Source: Acidobacteriota bacterium
Lineage (GTDB): Bacteria > Acidobacteriota > Terriglobia > Acidiferrales > UBA7541
Assembly (NCBI GenBank): GCA_003223245.1
Contig: QHYI01000154.1
Span: forward strand, 1 to 35,466
DNA: 35,466 bases
Direction: 5' to 3'
Below, in pieces: positions 3,386 to 31,332 of the stretch. The notes under the pieces were generated by a model. That model ran no database searches and was not told the DNA's origin. It saw nothing but the letters and a program-made list of their open reading frames with translations. Made by a program: the position numbers and the translations under genes. Numbering within the stretch: position 1 is the first letter of the stretch; the number at the start of each line of letters is the position of its first letter.

Positions 3386-5872
3386 CTAGCTACGCTGCGG
3401 GACAAGCGCGGAAGCTTGGCTGGTGCGAATCAGCGCTGCGACAAGGTCATACAGCGCCGGATTCGTACACACTTCATAATAGCAATGTTCCGTGGGGCGG
3501 CCTATCTTTCCGTCCGGCAGCAATTGGCGTGCGAAGGACTTGCGAATCACTAGCAATTCGACGGACTCGCCCATAGGAACTTCCCCGTAAAACAGGTTGA
3601 CGTTTTGCTTGCCCCACGGCATGTCCAGTTTCGTTTCGATGGAATCGAGCGAAATTTCCTCGGAAAGTTTCTTGAAACCGTCGTCGTTGAGCTCTATGCC
3701 GTTCATGTTGTAGCGCACAAGGAATTCATCCAACTCTTCCGCGGACGCGCCTTCCATCGTGTTCAGAAAATGGAAGACCGAGAAATGCGTTTTCTGCTTG
3801 GCGAGCATGCGCTTGGCCAGCTTGGCGCAGCCAGAGAGCCGATCGGAAACATTGAGCGCTTTCGAAATCATGATGCGCGAATCACCATCCACCCAATAAG
3901 TGGGCGCATCCCCTTGAAAGGCTACGCCCAAACCAAGTTCAAGAGCGGGAAGATCGCTGGAAGAAGCTCGTTCGTTGTAAGAATTGCAAGCCGCGAGAAT
4001 CTGGCGCGAGAGAATGCAAGCTTTCGCCACGGGCCGCGCGTAAGCAACCGACGATTCCGTTTCAAAAATAGCCAGAATGATGGCATCGCCTTCGATGAAC
4101 ACCTTCTTCGCATCGTAGCGATCGAGGAGCTTCTTGACTGGCTCGTGTAAATTCAAACTGAAATGAGAGGCGGGATTCAGTCCGCGCGAAAGCAGATCCT
4201 GAGTCATCCGCGTGGAGCCCCGCACGTCGGCCTTGATGATCACGTGGGAAATTACGTTATCCTGCTCTGGACGGGCTTCTTCGGGAAGAACGCACTCATA
4301 GAGGCGATTATTCATGCGCGACAACTCGCGCGCCTTCTCCGTCGTGACCAGATTGATGCGTTCCATACCAGTGGTCAGGTGCTCGGCGTCGCGAAGATCC
4401 CGGTGCAACCGCAAGAAATCACCGGCAAAACGCAGAACGATCCCCTTCACTTCCTCGCGCGAATACCGCTGGATTCTCCTGGAAAGCTCCTCAATGGTGC
4501 GGAGCGACAACTTCTTCGCGGGAACCTGCTTGATCACTCTTTCGACTTGTTTCAGCTCATCTTTGGAAACCAGCGCCCGGCGAAGCTGCTGAAGATGCAA
4601 AGGCGGACAGTATTCGTCAACGATGGGACGCACTTCATAGCTGGCCAGGACATGAAAGAGCATCTCGTGCTGCTCGAGGCGGTCAAGAAGACGAGTCAAT
4701 AGCTGCGCGCGTAGCGGCGCCGATTCCTCCGGCCCGGCATTCGGGTCAAACAAACGCTGCGCGTTTTCCGGTTCGTCGAGATACTCGCCAAGCCGAGACG
4801 CCTTGCCCTTTCGGAAAAAGTCCAGCTTCTGGCGAGCCTCTTCCACCTCCGGCCCCATTTCCTCCAGCTTGAGTTCCTGATCTTTGAGCTGGCTTTCAAT
4901 ATCGTTCAAAGAGGCTTTGAGCTCCGCCGGATCGTCAGAGCTCAAAAACTTGTTAAAGAAACTTTCCCCGCGGTCGAGACGCTTTCGCGTGGTCTCACGC
5001 TGCTCCTCAAGACGGGTAATCTCCCTGCGGATAGCCTCGACGCTCTCGATCAAGGCAGTATGTGTTTCAACCGCCTCCTTGTGGGCGGGATCGTCAGATA
5101 CGGTGATGCCGGCCTCGCGGAGAAACTCCTGGAAGAGCGCGTCCATCGCTTCGAAGCGGTCGGGGTCGCGCGCGTAATTGCCCAGCAGCACGTAGTGCTC
5201 GAGGAAAAAGATGTCGTCCTTGCCGCCGTCGAGGAAAATCAGCCGGTTCTTGCAAAGCTCGTAGTAGGGGGCAAAATCCTCGCCGAACAGGGCACGGCGG
5301 GTTTTCGCAATAGTGTTCTCTTCGACGTCCGCCAGAATCTGGGCCACCTGCTGCCCCGCGCGGCGAACAACGGCGCGCCGTGATGCCTGCAACTCCGACA
5401 AGCGTGCCTTGATGACGTGTGCTTGCTGGCTGCGTTCGAAATGTTCTCCGCGCTGGCGAATCCATTCCTTGCCTTCGAGGATGATGTTGGCGAACTGATT
5501 GCCGATTTCTGAAGTGAGAAACTTCAACAAGCTCAGGCGGAAAAGGAGGTCAATCTCGATGTTCTTGTGATATTTGGCCTGGGTCAGCGAGCTGTGCAGG
5601 AGTTCAGACAATAGTTTGCGGAACGCCACCGAGTCCGGCCCACGCGTGGCACGCGGCTCCATACCGGAAAATTGCGCTGAACTCGTATTCTGGCGAATCA
5701 GGTCGAGAAGATAATCGCGCGCCGCCTGAACAAATCTCGGGCTGAGGAAAACGTCGTGGTGGATATTGTCGACGCCGATGGCCATCGTCCCCATAGGAAT
5801 CGAGACGCTATAGCTTTTCAAGCCGATTCCGGACGGTTCAGACGTGCTTAACATGGAGAGTTCGCTCGGCAT
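3386..5872 (-). CDS. Large coiled-coil protein with C-terminal class III nucleotide cyclase-like domain
   Basis: The open frame reaches back to 6091, inside tsaE. I prefer the ATG at 5872 (828 residues) because the sequence before it looks non-conserved. No start has a strong ribosome site, so this is uncertain. Residues 1-260 are mostly helical and residues 265-360 form a charged coiled coil (AIRREITRLEEQRETTRK). Residues about 540-690 look like a class III adenylate/guanylate cyclase homology domain. IIKADVRGSTRMT gives the first metal Asp (D549), VFIEGDAIILAIF the second (D596), and ALNVSDRL the Asn/Arg pair (N674, R678). All four positions usually needed for catalysis seem present, although the surroundings are divergent. 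No membrane segment or N-terminal signal is evident. It lies downstream of tsaE as the last gene of the run. The ligand, product and partners are unknown, and activity is an inference. Confidence 0.6.
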   Translation of the reverse strand: MPSELSMLSTSEPSGIGLKSYSVSIPMGTMAIGVDNIHHDVFLSPRFVQAARDYLLDLIRQNTSSAQFSGMEPRATRGPDSVAFRKLLSELLHSSLTQAKYHKNIEIDLLFRLSLLKFLTSEIGNQFANIILEGKEWIRQRGEHFERSQQAHVIKARLSELQASRRAVVRRAGQQVAQILADVEENTIAKTRRALFGEDFAPYYELCKNRLIFLDGGKDDIFFLEHYVLLGNYARDPDRFEAMDALFQEFLREAGITVSDDPAHKEAVETHTALIESVEAIRREITRLEEQRETTRKRLDRGESFFNKFLSSDDPAELKASLNDIESQLKDQELKLEEMGPEVEEARQKLDFFRKGKASRLGEYLDEPENAQRLFDPNAGPEESAPLRAQLLTRLLDRLEQHEMLFHVLASYEVRPIVDEYCPPLHLQQLRRALVSKDELKQVERVIKQVPAKKLSLRTIEELSRRIQRYSREEVKGIVLRFAGDFLRLHRDLRDAEHLTTGMERINLVTTEKARELSRMNNRLYECVLPEEARPEQDNVISHVIIKADVRGSTRMTQDLLSRGLNPASHFSLNLHEPVKKLLDRYDAKKVFIEGDAIILAIFETESSVAYARPVAKACILSRQILAACNSYNERASSSDLPALELGLGVAFQGDAPTYWVDGDSRIMISKALNVSDRLSGCAKLAKRMLAKQKTHFSVFHFLNTMEGASAEELDEFLVRYNMNGIELNDDGFKKLSEEISLDSIETKLDMPWGKQNVNLFYGEVPMGESVELLVIRKSFARQLLPDGKIGRPTEHCYYEVCTNPALYDLVAALIRTSQASALVPQRS

Positions 5873-5985
5873 GTCCTTCGACCACGGGGCCTGTTTCCAA
5901 GCTAACAGCCGTCCTGCGACCGGGCAAGCAACCCAAAGGACAGGCGTAACCAGATAGTTAGCGGAGAGCGTCACAGACGAGGCCC

Positions 5986-6414
5986 TCAGGCGGGATCTAG
6001 CACGGAAATCCGGCGAGTGTCCCCCCCCAGATGCTCCAGCCGGACCCGAACCTGGGGCCAGGGTGAGGGAAGCGCAAACCTTTCTGACCATTCGACAATG
6101 GCGACGGCCGGTACTGCAAACATATCCTCGAGGCCAAGTGTCTCAAAGTCGTGAAAGCTCTCGACGCGGTAGAGGTCGGCATGATAGACCTTGGCTCGCT
6201 TGCCGTACACGTGAAGCAGGGTGAAAGTAGGGCTCGTAACGTCGTTTTCCTTGGCCGCGCCGAGGCCGGAGACCAAGCCCTTGGTCAAAGTGGTTTTTCC
6301 GGTACCAAGATCGCCAGTCAAAAGCACTAACACCGGTGTTTTCAATCGCTTAGCGAATTCCTTGCCCCATTGGGTGGTCTCCTCAGCGGAATGCGTAATG
6401 ATTTCCTCAGCCAC
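5986..6414 (-). CDS. tsaE: tRNA threonylcarbamoyladenosine biosynthesis ATPase TsaE
   Basis: TsaE is the small ATPase that works with TsaB and TsaD to place the t6A modification at position 37 of ANN-decoding tRNAs. The Walker A motif GDLGTGKTT lies at residues 34-42, followed by the family motifs SPTFTLLHVY and HADLYR and the late VEWSER. I chose the GTG at 6414 (142 residues, the usual size). It has GGAGG about 9 bases upstream and overlaps the nnrD stop by only 8 bases, whereas the ATG at 6483 would overlap by 77. Pairing of nnr and tsaE genes is common in bacteria and suggests translational coupling. Function is secure. Confidence 0.93.
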   Translation of the reverse strand: MAEEIITHSAEETTQWGKEFAKRLKTPVLVLLTGDLGTGKTTLTKGLVSGLGAAKENDVTSPTFTLLHVYGKRAKVYHADLYRVESFHDFETLGLEDMFAVPAVAIVEWSERFALPSPWPQVRVRLEHLGGDTRRISVLDPA

Positions 6415-8855: not shown

Positions 8856-10856
8856 CTACCGAAGCCGCGTCACAATGACGGTCATGTCATCGGCTTGTTC
8901 CGGCGTTCCCGCCCATTCTTCCGCGGCGGCCATCAGGGATTCCGCCACCGTCAAAGGCTTTGCGCTTTGAACTCGGATAGCAGCCTCTCTTAGTCGCGCG
9001 ATTCCAAACTCCTCTCCGTACACGTTCTCCGGTTCGACAAGGCCGTCGCTGTAGCCGATGAGCAACGAATCTGGGGCCACCTGCAGCAAGCCCTGCTCGT
9101 AAACGTAATCTTCCAGGACGCCCAGCACCATGCCGCCTTTGTCCAACAGATGCGACGAGCCGCTGCAGATAAGAAAGGAAGGCAGGTGGCCGGCGTTCGT
9201 GTAGCGCAGCGTTCGCGTGGCGCTGTCGTAGACAGCAATGAAAAAAGTGGCGAAGCGATCGTCGCCGGTGTTGCGCACGAGATGTTTGTTGAGCCGCGCC
9301 ACTAGTTCTGCCGTGCTTAGTGATTCGCTGCCTTCCGTGAGCGCCTGGCTACGCAGAGCCGCTTGCAAACTGGCCATGAGCAATGCCGCGGAAATTCCCT
9401 TCCCCGAAATATCCGCAATGGCAATAGCCACCTGCGTCGGGCTGAGCTGAATGAAATCGTAATAATCCCCGCTGACAGAGCGTGCGGCTTTGCAAATCGC
9501 TTCGATTTCTACGCCGGGAACCGAAGGCAACGTGCTGGGAAAAAGCTGATTCTGCACTTCGCGGGCAATAGCGATTTCGTTTTCCAGCCGCTGGCGCTTG
9601 TTCTGCTCCTCAATGAGCGTGCCGATGGAACTGGTCATCTGGTTGAAAGATTCTCCCAAAGAGCCCAGTTGGTCCATGCGCTCGACCTGGATGCGGTGGG
9701 AAAAATCTCCGCTCTGAACAAATAGTGTGGCTTTATAAAGATCGGCGACTGCCCGTGTAATTCGTCGAGTCAGCACAATCCCAGTGGTCCAGGCCACCGC
9801 TTCGATTAAAAGAAAAATGATCCCCACAAGCACGAACAAGATGACGTAAGTGCTTCGCAGTTCTCCGAGCGACGTGAAAATTCTCGCATTCAACCGCGAG
9901 GGCCGGGCATTCGAAACCGCCAGCAAGGGCCGCGCCGGGTCCACGGTTCCGTCCTTCGCCACAAAAACAGAATCGAGGCGTGACAGCACGTTCACCGGCG
10001 AATCGAGCCAGAACATCGCAGGTTGGAGCGTGCGGTTGCTGGCGACGATGCGCCCCGCCACGCGATATTGCTTCTCGCCGGACCTGTAAACAACACCTTG
10101 CCGTGCGGCTCCTTCGTAATTCTCCATGAGATTGAGCTGGATGACGCCGAGGTCCGACGCAATGGTGCTGAGGAATTCCGATTCCGACGTGACAGGAACG
10201 CGGAGAACAACCCAACGCAGTTCTTTGGAATCCTTAATCTTCCGCAGGCTCATGAGCCAAAGCGGCACTGGCGAACCCTCTTCCTGCAACAATCCGGAAA
10301 AAGAGTCCTTGCCTTGCAGCGTCGCTTTTTGCAGCGGAGATGGGTCATGGGAGAGGTCGATTTTCAATCCGGGAAGTTCGCGGTCGTGAACGGCATGCGA
10401 TTGTGCCGTGAGGATTTCTTTCAATTCGTCCTGCGAGATGCCAGCCGGGAGGGTCTGGCAAGTGATCGCAATATGCTGCGCAATATCCGCGATCATTTCG
10501 ATACGCTGGTGAATGTCGTCATAAAGAAGATAGGCGCCCAATTGCGAATATAGAATCCTTGCCGCCAGCACGACAAGAACGATGATGGACAGAATTGGGA
10601 CGACCGCAATAAGCAAATAGGCGACAATGAGCCGGTTTCGCAGGCTCCACAGCAATCGGCTTCTCCACCATCCAACCAGGCGCACAATGAGATAAATGCC
10701 CGCCACGACTGCCAGAAATTCTAGGAAGCCGAAAACTCCGGAGTGGATGCCAAAGAGTTCAACGACCAGCCCTAGCACGACGATCACCGAACAAACGACG
10801 TCCAGCCACGACAGGCGGCTCCAAACCTCTTTCAAGTTCGTGAAAAAAGGTTTCAT
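8856..10856 (-). CDS. Membrane-bound SpoIIE-type serine phosphatase with HAMP domain
   Basis: This is a PP2C-like phosphatase of the RsbU/SpoIIE class, which in known systems dephosphorylates an anti-sigma-factor antagonist. There are two or three hydrophobic segments in residues 17-100, an extracytoplasmic sensor region at about 105-330, another membrane segment at 336-358, HAMP at about 360-412, a short coiled linker (QRLENEIAIAREVQNQLFP), then the phosphatase domain. Metal-binding motifs are present: SGDYYD 462-467, ADISGKG 481-487, NAGH 554-557, YSDGLVE 602-608 and QADDMTV 654-660, so it should be active. No anti-sigma kinase or antagonist gene lies nearby, so its partner is encoded elsewhere. 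The signal it senses is unknown. Confidence 0.92.
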   Translation of the reverse strand: MKPFFTNLKEVWSRLSWLDVVCSVIVVLGLVVELFGIHSGVFGFLEFLAVVAGIYLIVRLVGWWRSRLLWSLRNRLIVAYLLIAVVPILSIIVLVVLAARILYSQLGAYLLYDDIHQRIEMIADIAQHIAITCQTLPAGISQDELKEILTAQSHAVHDRELPGLKIDLSHDPSPLQKATLQGKDSFSGLLQEEGSPVPLWLMSLRKIKDSKELRWVVLRVPVTSESEFLSTIASDLGVIQLNLMENYEGAARQGVVYRSGEKQYRVAGRIVASNRTLQPAMFWLDSPVNVLSRLDSVFVAKDGTVDPARPLLAVSNARPSRLNARIFTSLGELRSTYVILFVLVGIIFLLIEAVAWTTGIVLTRRITRAVADLYKATLFVQSGDFSHRIQVERMDQLGSLGESFNQMTSSIGTLIEEQNKRQRLENEIAIAREVQNQLFPSTLPSVPGVEIEAICKAARSVSGDYYDFIQLSPTQVAIAIADISGKGISAALLMASLQAALRSQALTEGSESLSTAELVARLNKHLVRNTGDDRFATFFIAVYDSATRTLRYTNAGHLPSFLICSGSSHLLDKGGMVLGVLEDYVYEQGLLQVAPDSLLIGYSDGLVEPENVYGEEFGIARLREAAIRVQSAKPLTVAESLMAAAEEWAGTPEQADDMTVIVTRLR

Positions 10857-17795: not shown

Positions 17796-17815
17796 GATAA
17801 TTTCTTCGAATTATC
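17796..17815 (-). terminator. Weak stem-loop with T-run at the pilQ stop
   Basis: GATAATT (17809-17815 on the minus strand) pairs with AATTATC (17796-17802) around a 6-base loop, and TTTT follows. The stem overlaps the pilQ stop codon. The shape is that of an intrinsic terminator, but the AT-rich 7-bp stem is weak, so partial read-through into the peptidase-accBC part is likely. Confidence 0.4.
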
Positions 17816-19856
17816 CCGGAAGGATTCGCGGCGTCAGGAAGAACAGCAGTTCCTGAGAGGAGGTGCTAACGCTTCTCCGCCTAAAGAGATTCCCAATCAA
17901 CGGCAAGCTACCAATGATCGGCGTCTCTTGCATGTCCACGCGCTGCGAGGAGACGATGACTCCGCCGATAACCACAGTGCCGCCATCTGCGACCGTCACC
18001 TTGGTTTCCACTGCCTGGGTATCGAGCGCCGGGACTCCTTGAATACGCGGAATGCCCTGGTCGATCTGCGTATTCTCCACGAGTACGTCCATGAAAATGG
18101 TGCCTTCCGCGGTGATTTGCGGCGTGACTTCCAGCTTCAATACGGCGTCAATGTACTGGACGGAAATGGTGTTGTTGATCGTCGTCTGGATCGGAATCTT
18201 GGTACCTTGCTTCACCGAAGATTTTTCGTTGTTCTGGCTGATGAGCTTGGGCTTCGAGAGCAATTTTCCTACGCCCTTCGATTCTGCGGCCGTGATAATG
18301 AAGTCGAGCGCAAAATTTGGAGAGCGGTGTGCAAACGTAAATCCAGTGCTCGGAGAACCAGCCGGGAAATTCGTATTTAGCGGAGTTCCGGTCGTTACTC
18401 CGTTGCCGCTAGTAGGTCCGCCCGAGACGCAACTAGAGGGAGAAATAATCGGACCAACGAGGCCGCTGCACCCTACCTCGGGCGTTCCGCCAAACACCGA
18501 GCGTCCGCCGGTCGTTGTTCCCGCAAACCCAAGCTGGGTGCCGATATCTTCCGCAAAGGAACGGGAGGCCGACACTACGCGCGCTTCGATTTCCACCTGC
18601 TGCGACTTGCGGTCCAACTGCGCCCTCAGGTTATCGATTACTGGTATTACGGATGGAATGTCGCGAATAATCAAGGTATTCGATCGATCATCGGATAGAA
18701 TATCGCCGCGTGAACTAAGAAATTTCTTCAGCGTGTCCTTCAGCACGGAAGCCTTTGCATAGCTCAGCACGCGGGTTACGGTGACCGGATCAACCGCTTC
18801 TGCCTGTGCCTTCACTAAATCCCGCTGGGATTCTGCTTCCGACTTCAGCGTAGACTTCATCGCGATTCGCAAAACGTTCCCGTTCAATTGTTTGTCCAGG
18901 CCATTGTTCTGCAACACGATGTCGAGCGCCTGGTCCCAGGGCACTTCATCGAGAACAATCGTCAGGCTTCCCTTTACCGCAGGGTCCAGCACCACATTCA
19001 AACCGCTGATTTCGTGGATCAGCCGGAAAAAGTCGCGCAGATCCACGTCCTTCAGGTTGACCGAAATAGGTTCGCCGGTGTACCTCGCCGCCGACTGCAT
19101 GGCCATTGGCGCTGGCGTTTGTGCGGCCGAAGTCGCCAACGTTGTGGCCGCCGTGTTTGCCTGCTGAATAGCCTGCTGGGCCGCCTGCTGCAGGTTCGCT
19201 TCCGGGCGAGCTGGGCCATTCTTCTCGCGGAACGAAGCCAGTGCGACGGGGGGCTCGGTCAGTTCGCCCGGCAAGGCAAAGCGAGGAGCAGGAATCTTGT
19301 TGGCGCTAGCAGAACGTTGTTCCTCAGCTTTACGCGGCGAAGGGGCACTCTGACCGACGCGCGGCTGTGACGAACGGTCGGTCAACGATGTTGTCAATGT
19401 CGGGTTCTGCCGAAGGCTCACAGGCATGGCTGCCGGAGTGCTAAAGGAAATTACCACGGCTTTGCCGTCTCGCGATACATGATAAGGCGTTGCCGTTGTC
19501 AGGTCGATCACCACTCGCGCCACGTTCGGTTGATACTGTCCCATGCGGACATCGACTACCGGAGCCGACACTCCCGGGATAACCGTTTTGTGAACCGCCA
19601 GCCGCGCTCCGACAAAGTCGAGCACCAAACGATCCGGGTGCTGCATGCGCGCCGCGCGAACGTCGAGCTTACCCTCTCCCTCCACGCGCACCGCCGATAC
19701 CTCAGGCGCTTGCGTGATCGCCACGCTGGAGATGACCGCGGCGGACTTGCCTGGGCTTGTGGGCTCCAGGGTTTGTGCCGGCGCGGACATCGTCGTCAGC
19801 GTTAAGCTCGCAAGCATCACGCAGCCATACTTGACGGCTGGCCAATTCGTTTTCAT
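17811..19856 (-). CDS. pilQ: Type IV pilus secretin PilQ
   Basis: PilQ forms the outer-membrane pore through which the type IVa pilus passes. The 681-residue protein has a signal peptide (cleavage near APAQ, about residue 28), one AMIN domain that should bind peptidoglycan (about 55-140), a low-complexity Pro/Gln/Ala linker (145-255), an STN/N0 domain (about 264-332), a secretin N1 domain (about 357-415) and the secretin barrel domain (about 420-681) with the signature IIGSLPLIGNLFRR at 647-660. A Gly/Ser-rich loop with two Cys (C463 and C476) is inserted in the gate region. It overlaps pilP by 4 bases and is last in the pilMNOPQ cluster. Confidence 0.95.
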   Translation of the reverse strand: MKTNWPAVKYGCVMLASLTLTTMSAPAQTLEPTSPGKSAAVISSVAITQAPEVSAVRVEGEGKLDVRAARMQHPDRLVLDFVGARLAVHKTVIPGVSAPVVDVRMGQYQPNVARVVIDLTTATPYHVSRDGKAVVISFSTPAAMPVSLRQNPTLTTSLTDRSSQPRVGQSAPSPRKAEEQRSASANKIPAPRFALPGELTEPPVALASFREKNGPARPEANLQQAAQQAIQQANTAATTLATSAAQTPAPMAMQSAARYTGEPISVNLKDVDLRDFFRLIHEISGLNVVLDPAVKGSLTIVLDEVPWDQALDIVLQNNGLDKQLNGNVLRIAMKSTLKSEAESQRDLVKAQAEAVDPVTVTRVLSYAKASVLKDTLKKFLSSRGDILSDDRSNTLIIRDIPSVIPVIDNLRAQLDRKSQQVEIEARVVSASRSFAEDIGTQLGFAGTTTGGRSVFGGTPEVGCSGLVGPIISPSSCVSGGPTSGNGVTTGTPLNTNFPAGSPSTGFTFAHRSPNFALDFIITAAESKGVGKLLSKPKLISQNNEKSSVKQGTKIPIQTTINNTISVQYIDAVLKLEVTPQITAEGTIFMDVLVENTQIDQGIPRIQGVPALDTQAVETKVTVADGGTVVIGGVIVSSQRVDMQETPIIGSLPLIGNLFRRRSVSTSSQELLFFLTPRILPG

Positions 19857-20683
19857 TGCTGTTCTCCTGAACTGGTGGAGTAGATTCGCTTGTTCACTTG
19901 GCGTTCCACCGGCTTGCCAAAAGCGTCTTTTCCTTCTTCGTGGAACGAAACGCCGTCCATGGTGATCTTCTCGACGCTACCGTCATACAGGTGGTCGCCC
20001 TCGCGCAGGAAATACGTTCTCGCCTGCGGGTTGGAAACTACGGCGATCATTCCATTCGGAGACCGCACGATGCCATCCAGCCGCAGCGTGCTGACTTGCA
20101 GGCCTGCCTTCCCCGGGGGAAGGTTGCTCGGCGTGCCCTTGCCTTCTGTCCCGTGGCTGACGAGAGACTCAAAAGGGTCCCTCCGTGCGGCCTTCAATTC
20201 GCTTTCAGCCGCGGCCCTGGGAGCGCCCTCCGGCCCCGCGGGGTTTTCTACGGCGTTCACGGGAGGCTCGCTTGCGCCTTTCTTCCGCGCGGATTTCGTG
20301 GCAGGCTTTGCCGCTGGTTTTCCCGGAGCCCTCACTGCCGGCTTCGCTGCTGCCAGTGACGCGGCAGGCTTTGCGGCTGCTGCAGGCTTCGTTGCTGCGG
20401 GCGCGGGCCTTACTGGCCCCTGGGCCGCTGGTTTTGCCGATGCCTGCGCAGCAGGCTTCGCCGGAGTTTGCGTCGCGGGCTTAACTGGAGTCTGCGCAGC
20501 CGGCTTCGCAGGAGTTTGCGTCGCTGGTTTGGCCGGAGGCTTGGTAGCCTGCTGCGTGCTCTGCCCCGCTTGTTCCGCCGTGGAGTTTCCAATACCGGGT
20601 GGAAGCGGATTCCTCTGCGCGCGCAAGCTTGGAGCCGCCGTGCCGATTAAGAGCCCTAATCCGATGGTTATCGCTGAACGCAT
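19853..20683 (-). CDS. pilP: Type IV pilus assembly protein PilP, with long Lys/Pro/Ala repeat linker
   Basis: PilP links the inner-membrane PilNO complex to the PilQ secretin. This 276-residue version has a signal peptide (about 1-22) with no clear lipobox Cys, unlike the classic lipoprotein. Residues about 44-135 are a repetitive stretch of KPATQTPAKPAAQTP-like units, and the C-terminal beta-domain (about 170-270) contains TLRLDGIVRSPNGMIAVV and YFLREGDHLYDG, which fits PilP. The identification also rests on its place between pilO and pilQ. The repeat region probably forms an extended periplasmic spacer. Confidence 0.85.
   Translation of the reverse strand: MRSAITIGLGLLIGTAAPSLRAQRNPLPPGIGNSTAEQAGQSTQQATKPPAKPATQTPAKPAAQTPVKPATQTPAKPAAQASAKPAAQGPVRPAPAATKPAAAAKPAASLAAAKPAVRAPGKPAAKPATKSARKKGASEPPVNAVENPAGPEGAPRAAAESELKAARRDPFESLVSHGTEGKGTPSNLPPGKAGLQVSTLRLDGIVRSPNGMIAVVSNPQARTYFLREGDHLYDGSVEKITMDGVSFHEEGKDAFGKPVERQVNKRIYSTSSGEQQ
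20395..20560 (-). repeat. In-frame tandem repeats in pilP coding for KPA(A/T)QTP units
   Basis: Degenerate repeats of about 24 bases, in subunits of 12, encode alternating Lys-Pro-Ala and Gln-Thr-Pro steps. At least four successive units are clear, then the repeat decays into AAAKPAA-type sequence. Slippage at such repeats could change the linker length in frame. Confidence 0.7.
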
Positions 20684-20700
20684 AGTTCGCTCGTTCCCGC

Positions 20701-21348
20701 TCAGGGTTTTCCAGGCGCGCCGCCCGGCTTGGCTCCCGCTGCGGCAGCCACAGTCGAGTCGGCAGGCTTGGTGAAAAATGTTGTTGCGGTGAAAATTCCG
20801 GAAACCGTCGTTCCTGGCCGCACCGGGTATTTTGCCCCCTTGGCGCTCTCCGGACCGTTAAACGTCAGGTCGCCCACATTGATAATTCGTGACAAACGGC
20901 CCAGCCGCCCAAAAAAGTCCAGCACGTTGAAGTACGGCCCGTCGGCCTGAATTTCAAACGGCATCTCGTAGTGATATTCCTTGGGCACGATCGCCAGCGA
21001 CTTCAGGCTGCGAATTTGTACGTTGGAGGCGCTCGCCGCTCCTTGGATCAGGCGGATGAACTCGTCCGCTTCTTTTTCCTCGGGAACAATCGTCTTCAGC
21101 GTTTCCAATTGTTTCGAGAGCGCGTCCATCTGCTGCTTCAATTCCCCGTAGCGCTGCTTGTAGACCTGAAGTTGCGCCACTTCCTGGCTTAACTGGGTCC
21201 GTTTCACTACCGCGGCGTCCACATCATCCCGCTCGTGCGCAATCGGCGACCCCGGCACGTAAACTCCAACCAGCACCAGCACCACCGCAACGGCCGCGGC
21301 CACGAGGGCCTGCATGATCACCGACATGTCTCGCAAAGGATTGGCCAT
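20701..21348 (-). CDS. pilO: Type IV pilus assembly protein PilO
   Basis: PilO is a bitopic inner-membrane protein that dimerises with PilN in the pilus alignment complex. The 215-residue protein has a short cytoplasmic N-terminus, one membrane segment at about 12-32, a periplasmic coiled coil (about 45-95, QLQVYKQRYGELKQQMDALS) and a C-terminal ferredoxin-like domain (about 100-190) with the family motif PFEIQADGPYFNVLDFFGRL. It ends in an Ala/Gly/Pro-rich tail. It lies 8 bases after pilN and 17 before pilP. Confidence 0.92.
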   Translation of the reverse strand: MANPLRDMSVIMQALVAAAVAVVLVLVGVYVPGSPIAHERDDVDAAVVKRTQLSQEVAQLQVYKQRYGELKQQMDALSKQLETLKTIVPEEKEADEFIRLIQGAASASNVQIRSLKSLAIVPKEYHYEMPFEIQADGPYFNVLDFFGRLGRLSRIINVGDLTFNGPESAKGAKYPVRPGTTVSGIFTATTFFTKPADSTVAAAAGAKPGGAPGKP

Positions 21349-21356
21349 GGGTCCCC

Positions 21357-21998
21357 TTAACCTTTCTTCGCCGGTGTGTTGGCCGCTGCCGCAGATGCAG
21401 TGGCCGGCCGTGCCTGCATGGGCGGCGGCGGTGCGATTTCCGCAGTGATCTGGAAGGTAATCGTTTGCAGGCCCTGCGTCTTGTCATCCTGCTTCGATTC
21501 CAGGATTTCCACCTTCTGGAAGTACCCCGAGCGCTTCAGCGCCGTAATGAAATTCGCCACCGCATTGATTGACGCGGACGCTCCGTTCATTGACAAGGCG
21601 TTCCCCTTCCGCGCCATTTCCGTCAGCCACAGGTTTTCTGTCCGCGACACGGTATTTGCCACCATGTCCAGCAGTTCTTGCCCGCCGGTACGGTCACGCT
21701 GCAACTGCTCGATGGTGTTGACGCGCTGCTGCAAAATGACTTTCTGCTTTTCAAACGCCTCGACTTGCAACTTGGTCTGCTCGAGTTCCGTTTTCTGCGC
21801 TTGCAGCGTTTTGATCTTGTTGTTTTCTTCGGTCAATTGTTTGTCCCAGGTGTAATAGAAGAACCCGAGAACCAACACGCCGACAAGAACGCCCACAGCA
21901 ATGAACGCCACGGGCATCGCTCCGCCAGTATCCACCGCCATTGTCGGCCGCCGGGCAGCCCTTGGTCGCGTTTGTCCAAGAAGGTTTATGCGAATCAT
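21357..21998 (-). CDS. pilN: Type IV pilus assembly protein PilN
   Basis: PilN is the inner-membrane partner of PilO, and its cytoplasmic N-terminus docks into PilM. The conserved docking peptide IRINLLGQ is at residues 2-9. A membrane segment (about 30-50) is followed by a coiled coil (about 55-100) and a Fimbrial_assembly-type domain (about 100-185). It starts 2 bases after pilM ends, consistent with translational coupling. The C-terminus is an extended Pro/Ala-rich tail from about residue 187. Confidence 0.93.
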   Translation of the reverse strand: MIRINLLGQTRPRAARRPTMAVDTGGAMPVAFIAVGVLVGVLVLGFFYYTWDKQLTEENNKIKTLQAQKTELEQTKLQVEAFEKQKVILQQRVNTIEQLQRDRTGGQELLDMVANTVSRTENLWLTEMARKGNALSMNGASASINAVANFITALKRSGYFQKVEILESKQDDKTQGLQTITFQITAEIAPPPPMQARPATASAAAANTPAKKG

Positions 21999-22000
21999 GG

Positions 22001-23053
22001 CTAGTCGAAGCTCCTCAGTGCCAGACCTACAGCAATCACCAACCGCGGCGCGATGTCGCGGATCTGATCATCGCTATGCCGGCTGGGATTGATGAGCACC
22101 CTGCGGAAGGGATTCAATTCCTCCACAGGCATGGCAAACTCCTCGCGTAACAAATCCACAAGTCCGGGCACCCGCGCCGTTCCGCCCGCCACCACAATCC
22201 GCTGGATGTTTTCCCCGCTCGCGGTGGCCCTGAAAAAGTCAAATGTCTTCTGGATTTCCAGAGTCAAAATGTCGGACACACTGCGCAAAATCTGTTGTCT
22301 CTGCTCATCGGTGACGCTCGGCAGCGTCTCGCCTTTTTTCAGGCGCTCGGCATCTTCAAAGCTCAGGTCCAGTTCCTTTTGCAGCGCGTCCGTGTATTGG
22401 TTCCCACCCACGCTCACGTCGCGCGTGAACAGCGGAATCCCGCCGCGCACGATGTTGATGTTCATCACGCTCGCGCCGATGTTCAGCAGCGCCACCGTCT
22501 GCGCGCTGTCCGGCTCATAATTTACTTCAAAGCAGTTCTGCAAGGCGAAAGCATCGATGTCCACAATCATCGGGGTCTTCCCCGCCTGCGCCAGCACATT
22601 GGTGTGGTTCAGAATCTTGTCTTTCTTCACCGCCACCAGCAGCACATCCATCTGGGAGTCCATCGACTCGAGCAGTTGATAGCTCAGATTCACGTCCGCG
22701 ATGTCGAAGGGAATATGCTGGCTGGCTTCCGAGGGAATCCGGTCGTACAACTCCTCCTCGGTCATCAACGGCAGCGGCACACGCTTAACGATGACCGAGT
22801 GCCCCGATACCGAAGTTGCCACATTCCTGATCTTGATGCGTTCGGCATCAAATATCTTGCTGATGGCGTTGGCGACCTGGGGCGCGTCCATGATCGCCCC
22901 GTCCACCACCGTGTCTGGCGCCAAGGACTCCATTCCGAAGCTTACGAGTTCGTAGCCCGCCTTGGTGGCTTTCAGCTCCACCGCTTTGATGGAGCTGGAT
23001 CCAATGTCCAGGCCTACGATTTGCTTGCTCTTTTTTCCGCCTAGTAGCCCCAT
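22001..23053 (-). CDS. pilM: Type IV pilus assembly protein PilM (actin-like ATPase)
   Basis: PilM is the cytoplasmic actin-like protein that binds PilN and connects the pilus motor to the alignment complex. The 350-residue protein shows VGLDIGSSSIKAVEL (phosphate-1 loop, 13-27), SVSGHSVIVKRVPLP, LLNIGASVMNINIVRGG (phosphate-2) and IVVAGGTARVPGLVDLL (adenosine motif). AGGAGAG lies upstream of the ATG. It is preceded 28 bases upstream by a small helix-turn-helix gene and followed by pilNOPQ. The motor and pilin genes (pilB, pilT, pilC, pilA) are not in the window. Confidence 0.96.
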   Translation of the reverse strand: MGLLGGKKSKQIVGLDIGSSSIKAVELKATKAGYELVSFGMESLAPDTVVDGAIMDAPQVANAISKIFDAERIKIRNVATSVSGHSVIVKRVPLPLMTEEELYDRIPSEASQHIPFDIADVNLSYQLLESMDSQMDVLLVAVKKDKILNHTNVLAQAGKTPMIVDIDAFALQNCFEVNYEPDSAQTVALLNIGASVMNINIVRGGIPLFTRDVSVGGNQYTDALQKELDLSFEDAERLKKGETLPSVTDEQRQQILRSVSDILTLEIQKTFDFFRATASGENIQRIVVAGGTARVPGLVDLLREEFAMPVEELNPFRRVLINPSRHSDDQIRDIAPRLVIAVGLALRSFD

Positions 23054-28343: not shown

Positions 28344-28845
28344 CAACTCCGCCGCCTGGCTCGGCAAAAGCTTTGTCCTAAAACGATCTTCCCCTGAGTT
28401 GCCCTAGGACGATTCCCCGGGGACCTCACGGGCCATGCGAATCGCCATGTAGTAATCATTAGCTTCTAGCAGCAGCCGTGCTGTCATTTGGTGTGTTTAT
28501 TGGGAGCCAAAGGGGAAAAGCCGACACCGAGCCAGATGCATCTCCGAAGGGCTCACACCTCGACTTTGTCGGTCGCGTCTCAAGCTTCTGTCAATTTCTC
28601 TGCGCCGCCCAGCTCTTTGCGCCCCCAAAAATAGCCCTAAGTCTTTTGAAATGATATCTTTAGCAGGCACTCACCGCTTAACTTCAACGGAATCGGTAGT
28701 ACGAGCCTCTAGCTTAGCTTAGCTAGCGGCCAATTTCCATGTTTTGCGCTTCCAGTTTCGTGCCTCTGGCCTTGAGTCACCAGTCACCCGGCACCAGTCA
28801 CATCCTTTCGAGTATCATGTCGAGTATCATGATGTGAGTTGAGCT
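28344..28845. other. Intergenic region upstream of the cysteine desulfurase gene
   Basis: About 500 bases without a gene on either strand. It contains a duplicated CACCAGTCAC (28777-28799 area) and a 12-bp tandem duplication directly before the start of the next gene. No RNA gene or clear promoter was recognised. Confidence 0.5.
28808..28831. repeat. Exact 12-bp tandem duplication
   Basis: TCGAGTATCATG occurs twice without a spacer, ending 14 bases before the ATG of the cysteine desulfurase gene. Each copy contains TATCAT, close to a -10 box, but no matching -35 box is seen at 17 bases. It may be a regulator site or a replication slip. Confidence 0.6.
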
Positions 28846-30030
28846 ATGAACCGCGTCTACCTCGATTACAACGCCACCACCCCCGTCGAGCCCGAAGTGC
28901 TCGACGCCATGCTTCCCTATTTCTCTGCGGAGTTTGGCAATGCCTCTTCCATCCATGCCTTCGGCCAGAGGGCGCGCGCTGCCGTCGAAACCGCCCGCGA
29001 ACAGGTTGCCGCGCTGATTGGCGCCGCTCCTCGAGAGATTTTCTTCACCAGCGGCGGCACCGAGTCCGACAACCACGCCATCTTCGGAATCGTCGGCTCC
29101 TCCGCTATGCCCCCAGGCCGCCGTCCCCACGTGATCACCTCGTTTGTCGAGCACGAAGCCGTTCTTAACACTTGCCAAGCTTTGGAAAAGCAAGGCGTGG
29201 ATGTTACTTATCTTCACGTGGACCAAGACGGCTTGATCGATCTCGAGGATTTGCACGGCGCGATTCGCAAGGAAACCGTGCTCATCACCATCATGCACGC
29301 TAACAACGAGCTCGGCACGATTCAGCCCCTCGAAGAAATCGGTCGCATCGCCAAAGAAGCCGATGTCTATTTCCATACTGATGCCGTGCAATCCGCGGGG
29401 AAAATTCCCGTCGACGTGAACCAGTGCCGCCTCGATCTTCTTTCTCTTTCGGGCCACAAACTGTACGCCCCCAAAGGCATTGGCGCTCTTTACCTTCGCG
29501 GCGGCACTCGTTTGCAGCAGCTCCTTTACGGCGGCCATCACCAGCGCGGCGTTCGTCCGGGCACGGAAAATGTTGCGGGCATCGTTGGCCTCGGCAAAGC
29601 TGCTGAGATCGCCCGCCATTCGCTCGCAAACGACGCCAAACGCCTCAGCGCGCTCCGGGATCAGTTGGAGCATGGCCTGGTGAATCGCATTCCCCACTCG
29701 CGCATCAATGGCGGCCGCGCTCCGCGCACCCCCAACACGACAAATCTCGTTTTCCCCGGCGTCGAAGGCGAGGCGCTCCTCATCGCGCTCGACCTGAAGG
29801 GTTTGGCCTGCTCCACTGGCGCCGCTTGCTCTTCCGGCGCCGTCGAGCCTTCGCACGTTCTCACCGCGATCGGCTTGCCTGCGGAACAAGCGCGCGCCAG
29901 CTTGCGTTTCAGCCTTGGCCGTCACACCACGCAAGCCGACATCGACTTCGCCATCCAGGTCGTACCCGCCGCCGTCGCTAAACTCCGCGAACTCTCGCCG
30001 ACCTACCAAAGGGCCGTCGCCCATGACTAA
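28846..30030 (+). CDS. Cysteine desulfurase (NifS/IscS family)
   Basis: This PLP enzyme releases sulfur from L-cysteine as a persulfide for Fe-S clusters and thio-modified tRNA. The 394-residue protein begins MNRVYLDYNATTPVEPEV. It has the PLP lysine K205 in SLSGHKLYAPKG, HANNELGTIQP, and the active-site loop ACSTGAACSSGAVEPSHVL with C328 as the likely persulfide Cys. The IscS/NifS (group I) loop length fits. MnmA, which takes its sulfur from such enzymes, follows in the same direction 117 bases later. No iscU, iscR or other cluster genes are nearby, so a tRNA role is the simplest reading. The gene symbol is left open between iscS and nifS. Confidence 0.95.
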   Translation: MNRVYLDYNATTPVEPEVLDAMLPYFSAEFGNASSIHAFGQRARAAVETAREQVAALIGAAPREIFFTSGGTESDNHAIFGIVGSSAMPPGRRPHVITSFVEHEAVLNTCQALEKQGVDVTYLHVDQDGLIDLEDLHGAIRKETVLITIMHANNELGTIQPLEEIGRIAKEADVYFHTDAVQSAGKIPVDVNQCRLDLLSLSGHKLYAPKGIGALYLRGGTRLQQLLYGGHHQRGVRPGTENVAGIVGLGKAAEIARHSLANDAKRLSALRDQLEHGLVNRIPHSRINGGRAPRTPNTTNLVFPGVEGEALLIALDLKGLACSTGAACSSGAVEPSHVLTAIGLPAEQARASLRFSLGRHTTQADIDFAIQVVPAAVAKLRELSPTYQRAVAHD

Positions 30031-30034
30031 CTGC

Positions 30035-30100
30035 TTTCCTTCCTCTCTGCGCCATCTCCGTCTACCTTGCGCCTCTGCGTTTCGTCTTGTCTTTGGTTCC
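30035..30100. repeat. CTCTGCG-type degenerate repeat tract
   Basis: Between the desulfurase gene and mnmA the strand is pyrimidine-rich with spaced CTCTGCG(C/T) units (TCTCTGCGCC, GCCTCTGCGTTTC). Read on the other strand these resemble the CAGAG units at 31376-31404 and 34335-34375. It looks like a dispersed short-repeat family and not a gene. Confidence 0.4.
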
Positions 30101-30147
30101 TCTGGCTGCGCGCCGAAACTGAATCCGTTTACAATGAAATTGTGCCC

Positions 30148-31332
30148 ATGAACGCCGCCAGCCAATTCGCTACCCTGCCCGAGCGCGCAGAAACCCAGCC
30201 CGGCCTTGTCGCCGTCGCCATGTCTGGTGGTGTCGATTCCTCCACCGTCGCCGCACTCCTGCAGCAGCAAGGCCGTCCGGTGGTCGGCCTCACCATGCAG
30301 CTCTGGAACCAGCGCCGTCTGCCCGAACTGCAAGGGGATGGCCCTGCGCAGCACCGCTGCTGCTCGCTCGACGATGTCTACGACGCAAAGGCCGTGGCGC
30401 GGCATCTGAATTTTCCGCACTATGTGGTGAACTTCGAGCAGCAGTTCGAGTCGCGCGTGGTGCGTCCGTTTGTGGATCAGTATCTCGCCGGACGTACGCC
30501 CATCGCCTGCACAAATTGCAATACCGACGTGAAATTCGAGCCGCTCTTGCAGATGGCGCGGCAAATCGGCGCGGAGCGCCTCGCCACCGGGCACTACGCG
30601 CGCATCCGCAAAAACGAAATGACCGATCGCTGGGAATTGTTGCGTGCGTGCGATGAAACGAAGGACCAATCGTATTTTCTGTGGGGGCTCACGCAGGAAC
30701 AGCTTTCGCGTAGCGAATTCCCTCTCGGCGAACTCACCAAGGAAGAAGTGCGTGCGTTGGCCCGCCAGGTGAATCTTCCCGTAGCGGAAAAACCGGAAAG
30801 CATGGAGCTGTGTTTTGTGCCTAACGGCAACTACGTGCAGTTCATCCATGCGTATTCGCGCGAGCGCGGAACTCCTCTAAGCGACGCGGAAGGCGAAATC
30901 GTCAATGAACGCGGCGAAATCATCGGCCGCCACAACGGCGTGCACAATTTCACCGTTGGCCAGCGCAAGGGACTTGGGTTTGCCGCCGGCAAGCCCCTTT
31001 ACGTTCTCTCGATCGATCGGCAAAACAATCGCGTGGTTGTCGGCGAAGATGAAGCCTTGCGTAAGCGGACCTTTGAAGTGAAAGGCGTGAATTGGGTTTC
31101 GATCGCGCAGCCATCCGGAACGTTTCGCGCTTCGGTCAAGATTCGCCACAAGCACGAACCCGCTCCCGCCACGGTCGTAGCTCTTGACGAAACCCACCTG
31201 CGCGTCACCTTCGACACGCCGCAGCGTGCCATCACTCCCGGCCAAGCGGCCGTCTTCTACGGTTCTGATGATTGCGGCAACGGAAAGAACCCTCGCCTCC
31301 TCGCCGGCGGCTGGATCCGCGGAAGCAAGTAA
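30148..31332 (+). CDS. mnmA: tRNA-specific 2-thiouridylase MnmA
   Basis: MnmA adds sulfur to U34 of Glu, Gln and Lys tRNAs using ATP and a persulfide relay. The 394-residue protein has the PP-loop AMSGGVDSSTVAALL near residues 25-39, the catalytic Cys in RTPIACTNCNTDVKFEPLL, the second Cys in ESMELCFVPNGNYVQFI, and the typical central HNFTVGQRKGLG. The ATG at 30148 is chosen because homology begins soon after it; the frame is open to 30067, but that part is the repeat-like spacer. A GTG two codons upstream is also possible. It follows the cysteine desulfurase gene, its likely sulfur donor. Confidence 0.95.
   Translation: MNAASQFATLPERAETQPGLVAVAMSGGVDSSTVAALLQQQGRPVVGLTMQLWNQRRLPELQGDGPAQHRCCSLDDVYDAKAVARHLNFPHYVVNFEQQFESRVVRPFVDQYLAGRTPIACTNCNTDVKFEPLLQMARQIGAERLATGHYARIRKNEMTDRWELLRACDETKDQSYFLWGLTQEQLSRSEFPLGELTKEEVRALARQVNLPVAEKPESMELCFVPNGNYVQFIHAYSRERGTPLSDAEGEIVNERGEIIGRHNGVHNFTVGQRKGLGFAAGKPLYVLSIDRQNNRVVVGEDEALRKRTFEVKGVNWVSIAQPSGTFRASVKIRHKHEPAPATVVALDETHLRVTFDTPQRAITPGQAAVFYGSDDCGNGKNPRLLAGGWIRGSK

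Follow-up and report, generated by a model that had tools for sequence, protein, structure and literature searches.

Within the stretch of Acidobacteriota DNA analysed here (the window, 35,466 nucleotides), a gene on the minus strand (3386..5872, 828 aa, ATG start at 5872) encodes a protein whose C-terminal domain is, by descent and by fold, almost certainly a class III nucleotide cyclase, and whose base-reading pocket is rewired and fixed in its family. The original prediction of a divergent class III cyclase domain is thus borne out by structure matches and by profile homology to PF00211 proteins, but it missed the main oddity, namely that the base-specificity residues have been replaced by a nearly invariant different set. 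Homology, predicted fold, invariant catalytic and pocket residues and purifying selection are all established by the comparisons below. Judged from sequence, the family is probably a lineage-inherited, dimeric class III cyclase that is probably active. The account we lean towards is that of a soluble class III cyclase whose base choice is altered and whose input part would be a helical module.

The gene and its cyclase domain

The original prediction gave the right coordinates for this gene but left its strand unstated; on the plus strand of 3386-5872, stops are present in frame. The full open frame on the minus strand covers 3386-6091 (901 aa), and a start at 6091 was considered and not preferred. 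Since a methionine is aligned with the 5872 start in 27 of 30 homologues, the 5872 ATG, giving 828 aa, is the better start. The gene begins 113 bases past the TsaE gene, and 221 bases separate its end from a convergent gene that matches DUF5916. A scan for promoters and terminators found 1 and 3 sites, where shuffled sequence had 1.2 and 3.8. The best 19-residue stretch of the window protein reaches a hydropathy of only 1.19 and so indicates no membrane segment, in agreement with the soluble protein that had been predicted. A chance or frame artefact was ruled out by conservation, selection and structure matches.

An AlphaFold model made from 26 family sequences (mean pLDDT 83.6) has the fold of the class III superfamily, the outcome that the original prediction had anticipated for a structure prediction. 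The core of the domain, supported by the model, the structure matches and hhalign, consists of residues 536-700 (3773..4267, minus strand) and is followed by a C-terminal part with long beta strands at residues 701-811 (3440..3772, minus strand), as read from the secondary structure of the model. When Foldseek was run with the model, class III cyclases ranked first, CyaC being the best (E 1.6e-6), with 64 matches at E <= 0.001. VIA-align reached a Z of 15.9 with an rmsd of 3.0 over 177 residues, in the model range 518-809. The structure matches listed, the best 50 of 668 from Foldseek and the best 50 of 933 from VIA-align, are class III cyclases.

The Pfam search proposed with the original prediction turned out negative: PF00211 was absent from the matches of 30 domain sequences at E <= 10, which amounted to two chance Pfam matches in all, neither of them PF00211. 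Nor, when 26 full-length members were searched at E <= 1, did it appear among the 25 families listed out of 50. NCBIfam did not name the protein, its two weak matches falling on the coiled coil, and sequence searches of the PDB returned nothing. Homology to PF00211 proteins was recovered by profiles. The family profile matched five proteins of related genomes at 8.5e-8 to 9.5e-4, all of which carry PF00211 plus GAF or CHASE2 domains, and hhalign aligned the family with 25 ordinary cyclases (95%, E 4e-8) that had been chosen through a separate profile (PADLOC PycC). These 25 come from 36 rows, after leaving out four for which only a fragment was located (L111, L112, L174, L181), three seeds (L113-L115), the window genome's own cyclase (L116), one partial sequence (L172) and the PycC-like L160 and L161. 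The PF00211 protein of the window genome itself is not recovered significantly by the family profile (E 0.22). Members were also matched by a canonical profile made from the five proteins that the family profile had picked, a circular result that was not counted as evidence. In a tree the family is a single clade (100/100) whose stem is very long and whose neighbours are unsure.

Catalytic residues and the base-reading pocket

The four catalytic residues are numbered as originally predicted, and the codon of each was checked: the two metal aspartates D549 (first; 4226..4228) and D596 (second; 4085..4087), and the transition-state residues N674 (3851..3853) and R678 (3839..3841), all on the minus strand. 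They are invariant in 31 of 31 rows of a first alignment and in 78 of 78 rows of a larger one that includes the window. The 78 rows, which stand for 77 genes since L059 recurs as the truncated copy L065, were drawn from 141 profile matches by dropping those shorter than 700 aa and those whose last 200 residues were identical. K547, R551, S553, F592, E594, G595, A597, S670 and D677 are equally fixed in this alignment. Among 36 rows, the 13 that lie farthest from the window protein still share 50-61% identity with it in the core (536-700) and 7-31% in the coiled coil. Nei-Gojobori dN/dS of the core was 0.018, 0.027 and 0.041 in three pairs, rough values with synonymous changes near saturation, and in all three comparable pairs no other part of the protein is as strongly constrained as the cyclase core. 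We consider the domain likely to be catalytically active.

The four pocket positions compared are, counting back towards the N-terminus, the second residue from the first metal Asp, the fourth and the second from the second metal Asp, and the seventh from the Asn. Ordinary Acidobacteriota cyclases hold Phe, Lys, one of Ile, Val, Met or Leu, and Thr at these four positions (25/25). The family instead holds K547 (4232..4234) in place of the Phe, F592 (4097..4099) in place of the specificity Lys, E594 (4091..4093) at the place of the base-reading Asp or Gln of pyrimidine cyclases, and I667 (3872..3874) in place of the specificity Asp or Thr, all on the minus strand. The first three are invariant (78/78 each); the complete K547/F592/E594/I667 set occurs in 77 of the 78 rows, the remaining one having K/F/E/V. 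The pocket is unlikely to be decaying, because its new letters are fixed.

According to excerpts of PMC7384201, class III cyclases read adenine with Lys and Asp or Thr. With F592 and I667 (Val in one row) at these places, the family has neither the canonical adenylyl cyclase readers nor those of canonical guanylyl cyclases (Glu at the Lys place, Cys or Ser at the Asp place). It also differs from PycC, K547, F592 and E594 standing against F, R and Q in EaPycC or Y, D and R in BcPycC. The family and both kinds of PycC nonetheless have a polar residue at the second position ahead of the second metal Asp, as do 0 of the 25 ordinary cyclases. It seems somewhat the likelier case that the substrate base is one other than adenine. 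A Lys donor and a Glu acceptor fit a keto base with a ring NH, and therefore GTP or UTP would be the likeliest substrate; as far as four residues can tell, guanine or uracil should fit K547/E594 better than adenine or cytosine.

The best-surviving alternative is an adenylyl cyclase whose Lys and Phe have changed places between strands, K547 taking the adenine contact of the canonical Lys and F592 filling the place of the canonical Phe, so that cAMP would be made for the cell's CRP-like proteins. Indeed, the exchange goes both ways, the F/K of ordinary cyclases being K/F in the family, and the window genome (G000) has 12 matches to PF00027 (cyclic-nucleotide-binding) versus one to PF00211, which makes cyclic-nucleotide receptors plausible. 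However, the second reader (Asp/Thr) is lost as well, being Ile or Val in 78/78 rows, and the added acidic E594 suits adenine poorly; we regard an adenylyl cyclase as unlikely. A catalytically dead cyclase fold, retained for nucleotide binding or dimerisation, is a little less probable again. It would be in keeping with a non-canonical base pocket and with a domain that no standard profile recognises, whereas the invariance of the four catalytic residues together with their neighbours G595, A597 and S670 in all 78 rows, and a core that is the most constrained part of the protein in every comparable pair, argue for a working enzyme. GGDEF and class III domains have a palm-like fold in common, and a domain of this fold might carry out another reaction, for example dinucleotide synthesis as by GGDEF domains. 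This we hold to be very improbable: the best 50 structure matches listed from each search are class III cyclases, and the N674/R678 pair belongs to class III. Pfam gave no GGDEF match for the domain.

The N-terminal half and the genomic setting

Ahead of the cyclase domain, the original prediction described about 540 residues of helical and coiled-coil sequence. A helical module is confidently predicted, but the coiled coil is limited to about residues 256-365: the conserved unit before the cyclase is the module, and the coiled coil is a variable insertion. The module, a proposed input domain, is made of residues 18-255 (5108..5821), conserved in 36 rows, and residues 366-520 (4313..4777), recognised from the model and from 36-row conservation. 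Between them lies the hairpin of residues 256-365 (4778..5107; these three features are all on the minus strand), with helices at 262-302 and 315-365 in the model. About 110 residues long, the hairpin is reduced to 12-17 residues in 26 of the 78 rows (25 genes), all of which belong to one bacterial family, f11. Predicted alone, residues 18-530 gave a pLDDT of 89.9 and a pTM of 0.81. A Foldseek search of the PDB with the N-terminal half returned 359 matches at E <= 10 and none at 0.001. Because the VIA-align rows for this half (best Z 11.2) fall mainly on the coiled coil, we do not claim that the module has no known fold. As had been predicted, neither Pfam nor NCBIfam recognises a sensor domain here. 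PADLOC matched residues 151-474 of the window protein to LmuB (0.0098), but this region is helical and coiled-coil and the match was discounted. Right before the cyclase, the secondary structure of the model has a strand-helix-strand segment at residues 505-527 (4292..4360, minus strand). In other class III enzymes a cyclase transducer element precedes the cyclase domain (excerpts of PMC7384201), and the segment may be likened to it by position only.

Of 41 genomes, counting that of the window, 30 have the family. Across the class, the domain profile matches 116 of 399 genomes sampled and real members occur in 115, G509 being excluded for having matched solely via an ordinary GAF cyclase and G642 contributing just a 41-position fragment. 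In a survey of the phylum that scored a maximum of two candidates per genome, at least 7 of 396 genomes match; six are real, all six in the same class, and G090 matches the coiled-coil stretch only. Other phyla were covered through a single-protein scan of genome contigs alone, which yielded 22 loci; in 21 the record title reads Acidobacteria, Acidiferrum or Terriglobia. One locus titled Betaproteobacteria (L052, CAJCHZ010000024.1) has a gene order that matches the window and is probably a mislabelled record. The gene is mostly single-copy and syntenic, and a search for a mobile origin gave no plasmid match and 24 viral stretches that fit a pattern, none encoding a relative.

The setting after tRNA-modification and NADPHX-repair genes, as originally described, holds in the window's group: genes for TsaE (PF02367) and NnrD (PF01256/PF03853) lie directly upstream of the window gene, and both recur upstream in 21 of 22 related loci, with a SpoIIE-type phosphatase upstream in 18 of 22, although some contigs end early. 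It does not hold in f11, where an M28 peptidase (15), a MutY-like protein (13) and a redoxin (11), named by Pfam from one representative of each, recur instead across 25 loci. Since the TsaE/NnrD setting is absent from f11, which is of the same class, position says little about function. Elsewhere in the window, 8856-10856 encodes a HAMP and SpoIIE-type phosphatase protein, membrane-anchored by its look and a possible signalling partner; 17811-23053 (minus strand) is a type IV pilus assembly run (secretin, PilP, PilO, PilM), and 28798-30849 (minus strand) is a 683-aa open frame without a Pfam match at 0.001. No PF00027 domain, as might mark a Pycsar receptor or effector, was found among the window proteins scanned.

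The least probable reading, and a disfavoured one, is that of a Pycsar pyrimidine cyclase acting in phage defence: the PADLOC PycC profile PDLC02368 matches 18 of 30 members (best 2.3e-5) and a polar residue stands at the place of D94 in BcPycC and Q144 in EaPycC, but no PycC model matches the window protein, 3 of 14 control genomes also have proteins that the same profile picks up, the 12 PF00027 matches all lie outside the window contig (C104), the mostly single-copy, syntenic gene has neither a plasmid match nor a viral relative, and the family stands apart from the PycC-like L160 and L161 in the tree, whose deep branches are unsure.

Proposed function and comparison with known cyclases

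In the reading that we favour, a soluble class III cyclase with altered base choice, the C-terminal domain (536-811) would be the nucleotidyl cyclase of a soluble signalling enzyme and would act as a head-to-tail dimer, as in its relatives. Two metal ions would be held by D549 and D596 of one chain, the transition state would be stabilised by N674 and R678 of the partner chain, and an NTP would be converted to a 3',5'-cyclic NMP and pyrophosphate. K547 and E594 would line the base site, with F592 and I667 standing for the usual Lys and Asp/Thr and with GTP or UTP as the likeliest substrate. The 12 PF00027 matches of the window genome, set beside its one PF00211 match, count in favour of this reading as well. 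The N-terminal helical module (18-255, 366-520) may be the input part, acting through segment 505-527, and the coiled-coil hairpin may serve as an accessory arm for dimerisation or docking. Only tentatively do we put forward the fullest version, namely a lineage-specific, chromosomal cyclase outside phage defence, with an undescribed helical input and a Lys/Phe/Glu/Ile pocket of a third kind, whose product is not cAMP but, for instance, cGMP or cUMP.

The open-licence full-text literature, subscription papers being outside its scope, yielded no paper on cyclases of Acidobacteria, and cyclic-nucleotide signalling in Acidobacteriota seems little described. A cyclase family that is missed by Pfam and has a fixed, unfamiliar pocket would widen the known modes of base choice. 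The protein may make an unexpected signal molecule, and if cGMP or cUMP is the product, it would be a chromosomal source of such a signal outside phage defence.

CyaC of Spirulina platensis (PF00211, PDB 1WC0-1WC6) resembles the family in its fold, its two metal Asp and its Asn/Arg pair, whereas identity is 15-17% in the best rows and the N-terminal parts differ. From PF00211 adenylyl cyclases the family is set apart by lacking both the Lys and Asp/Thr base readers and a PF00211 match. Guanylyl cyclases are alike in fold (Cya2, Foldseek E 5.2e-6; the RhGC domain 6SIR, VIA-align Z 15.9), and an acidic base reader is possible in the family too. However, excerpts of PMC7384201 place the Glu with which known cyclases read GTP four, not two, residues before the metal Asp, and the guanine Glu of RhGC thus sits at the place of F592, not of E594.

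Among pyrimidine cyclases, EaPycC reads CTP with F100, R142 and Q144, which occupy the positions of K547, F592 and E594 in the family, and has D102 and D146 as metal residues, while the base readers of BcPycC are Y50, D94 and R97 (excerpts of PMC11224242). We place D94 at the position of E594 because L160 and L161 show Tyr, Asp and Arg at exactly the BcPycC spacing (44 and 47). These two frames (232 and 274 aa), from other Acidobacteriota families, are themselves candidate pyrimidine cyclases with the spacing of the uridylate cyclase BcPycC. Like PycC, the family places a polar residue at the second position ahead of the second metal Asp and lacks a Lys at the fourth; unlike PycC, it has a long helical N-terminal module, is lineage-inherited and is accompanied by no PF00027 receptor on the window contig. 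As described in excerpts of PMC4886424, the DUF2652 proteins are likewise bacterial and cyclase-like, were found by remote homology and have unusual specificity residues. They differ from the family in being nearly all single-domain proteins with an average length of 250, in being hosted by Actinobacteria, Bacteroidetes and Proteobacteria, and, in the mycobacterial set, in having Ile where the family has its invariant Asn.
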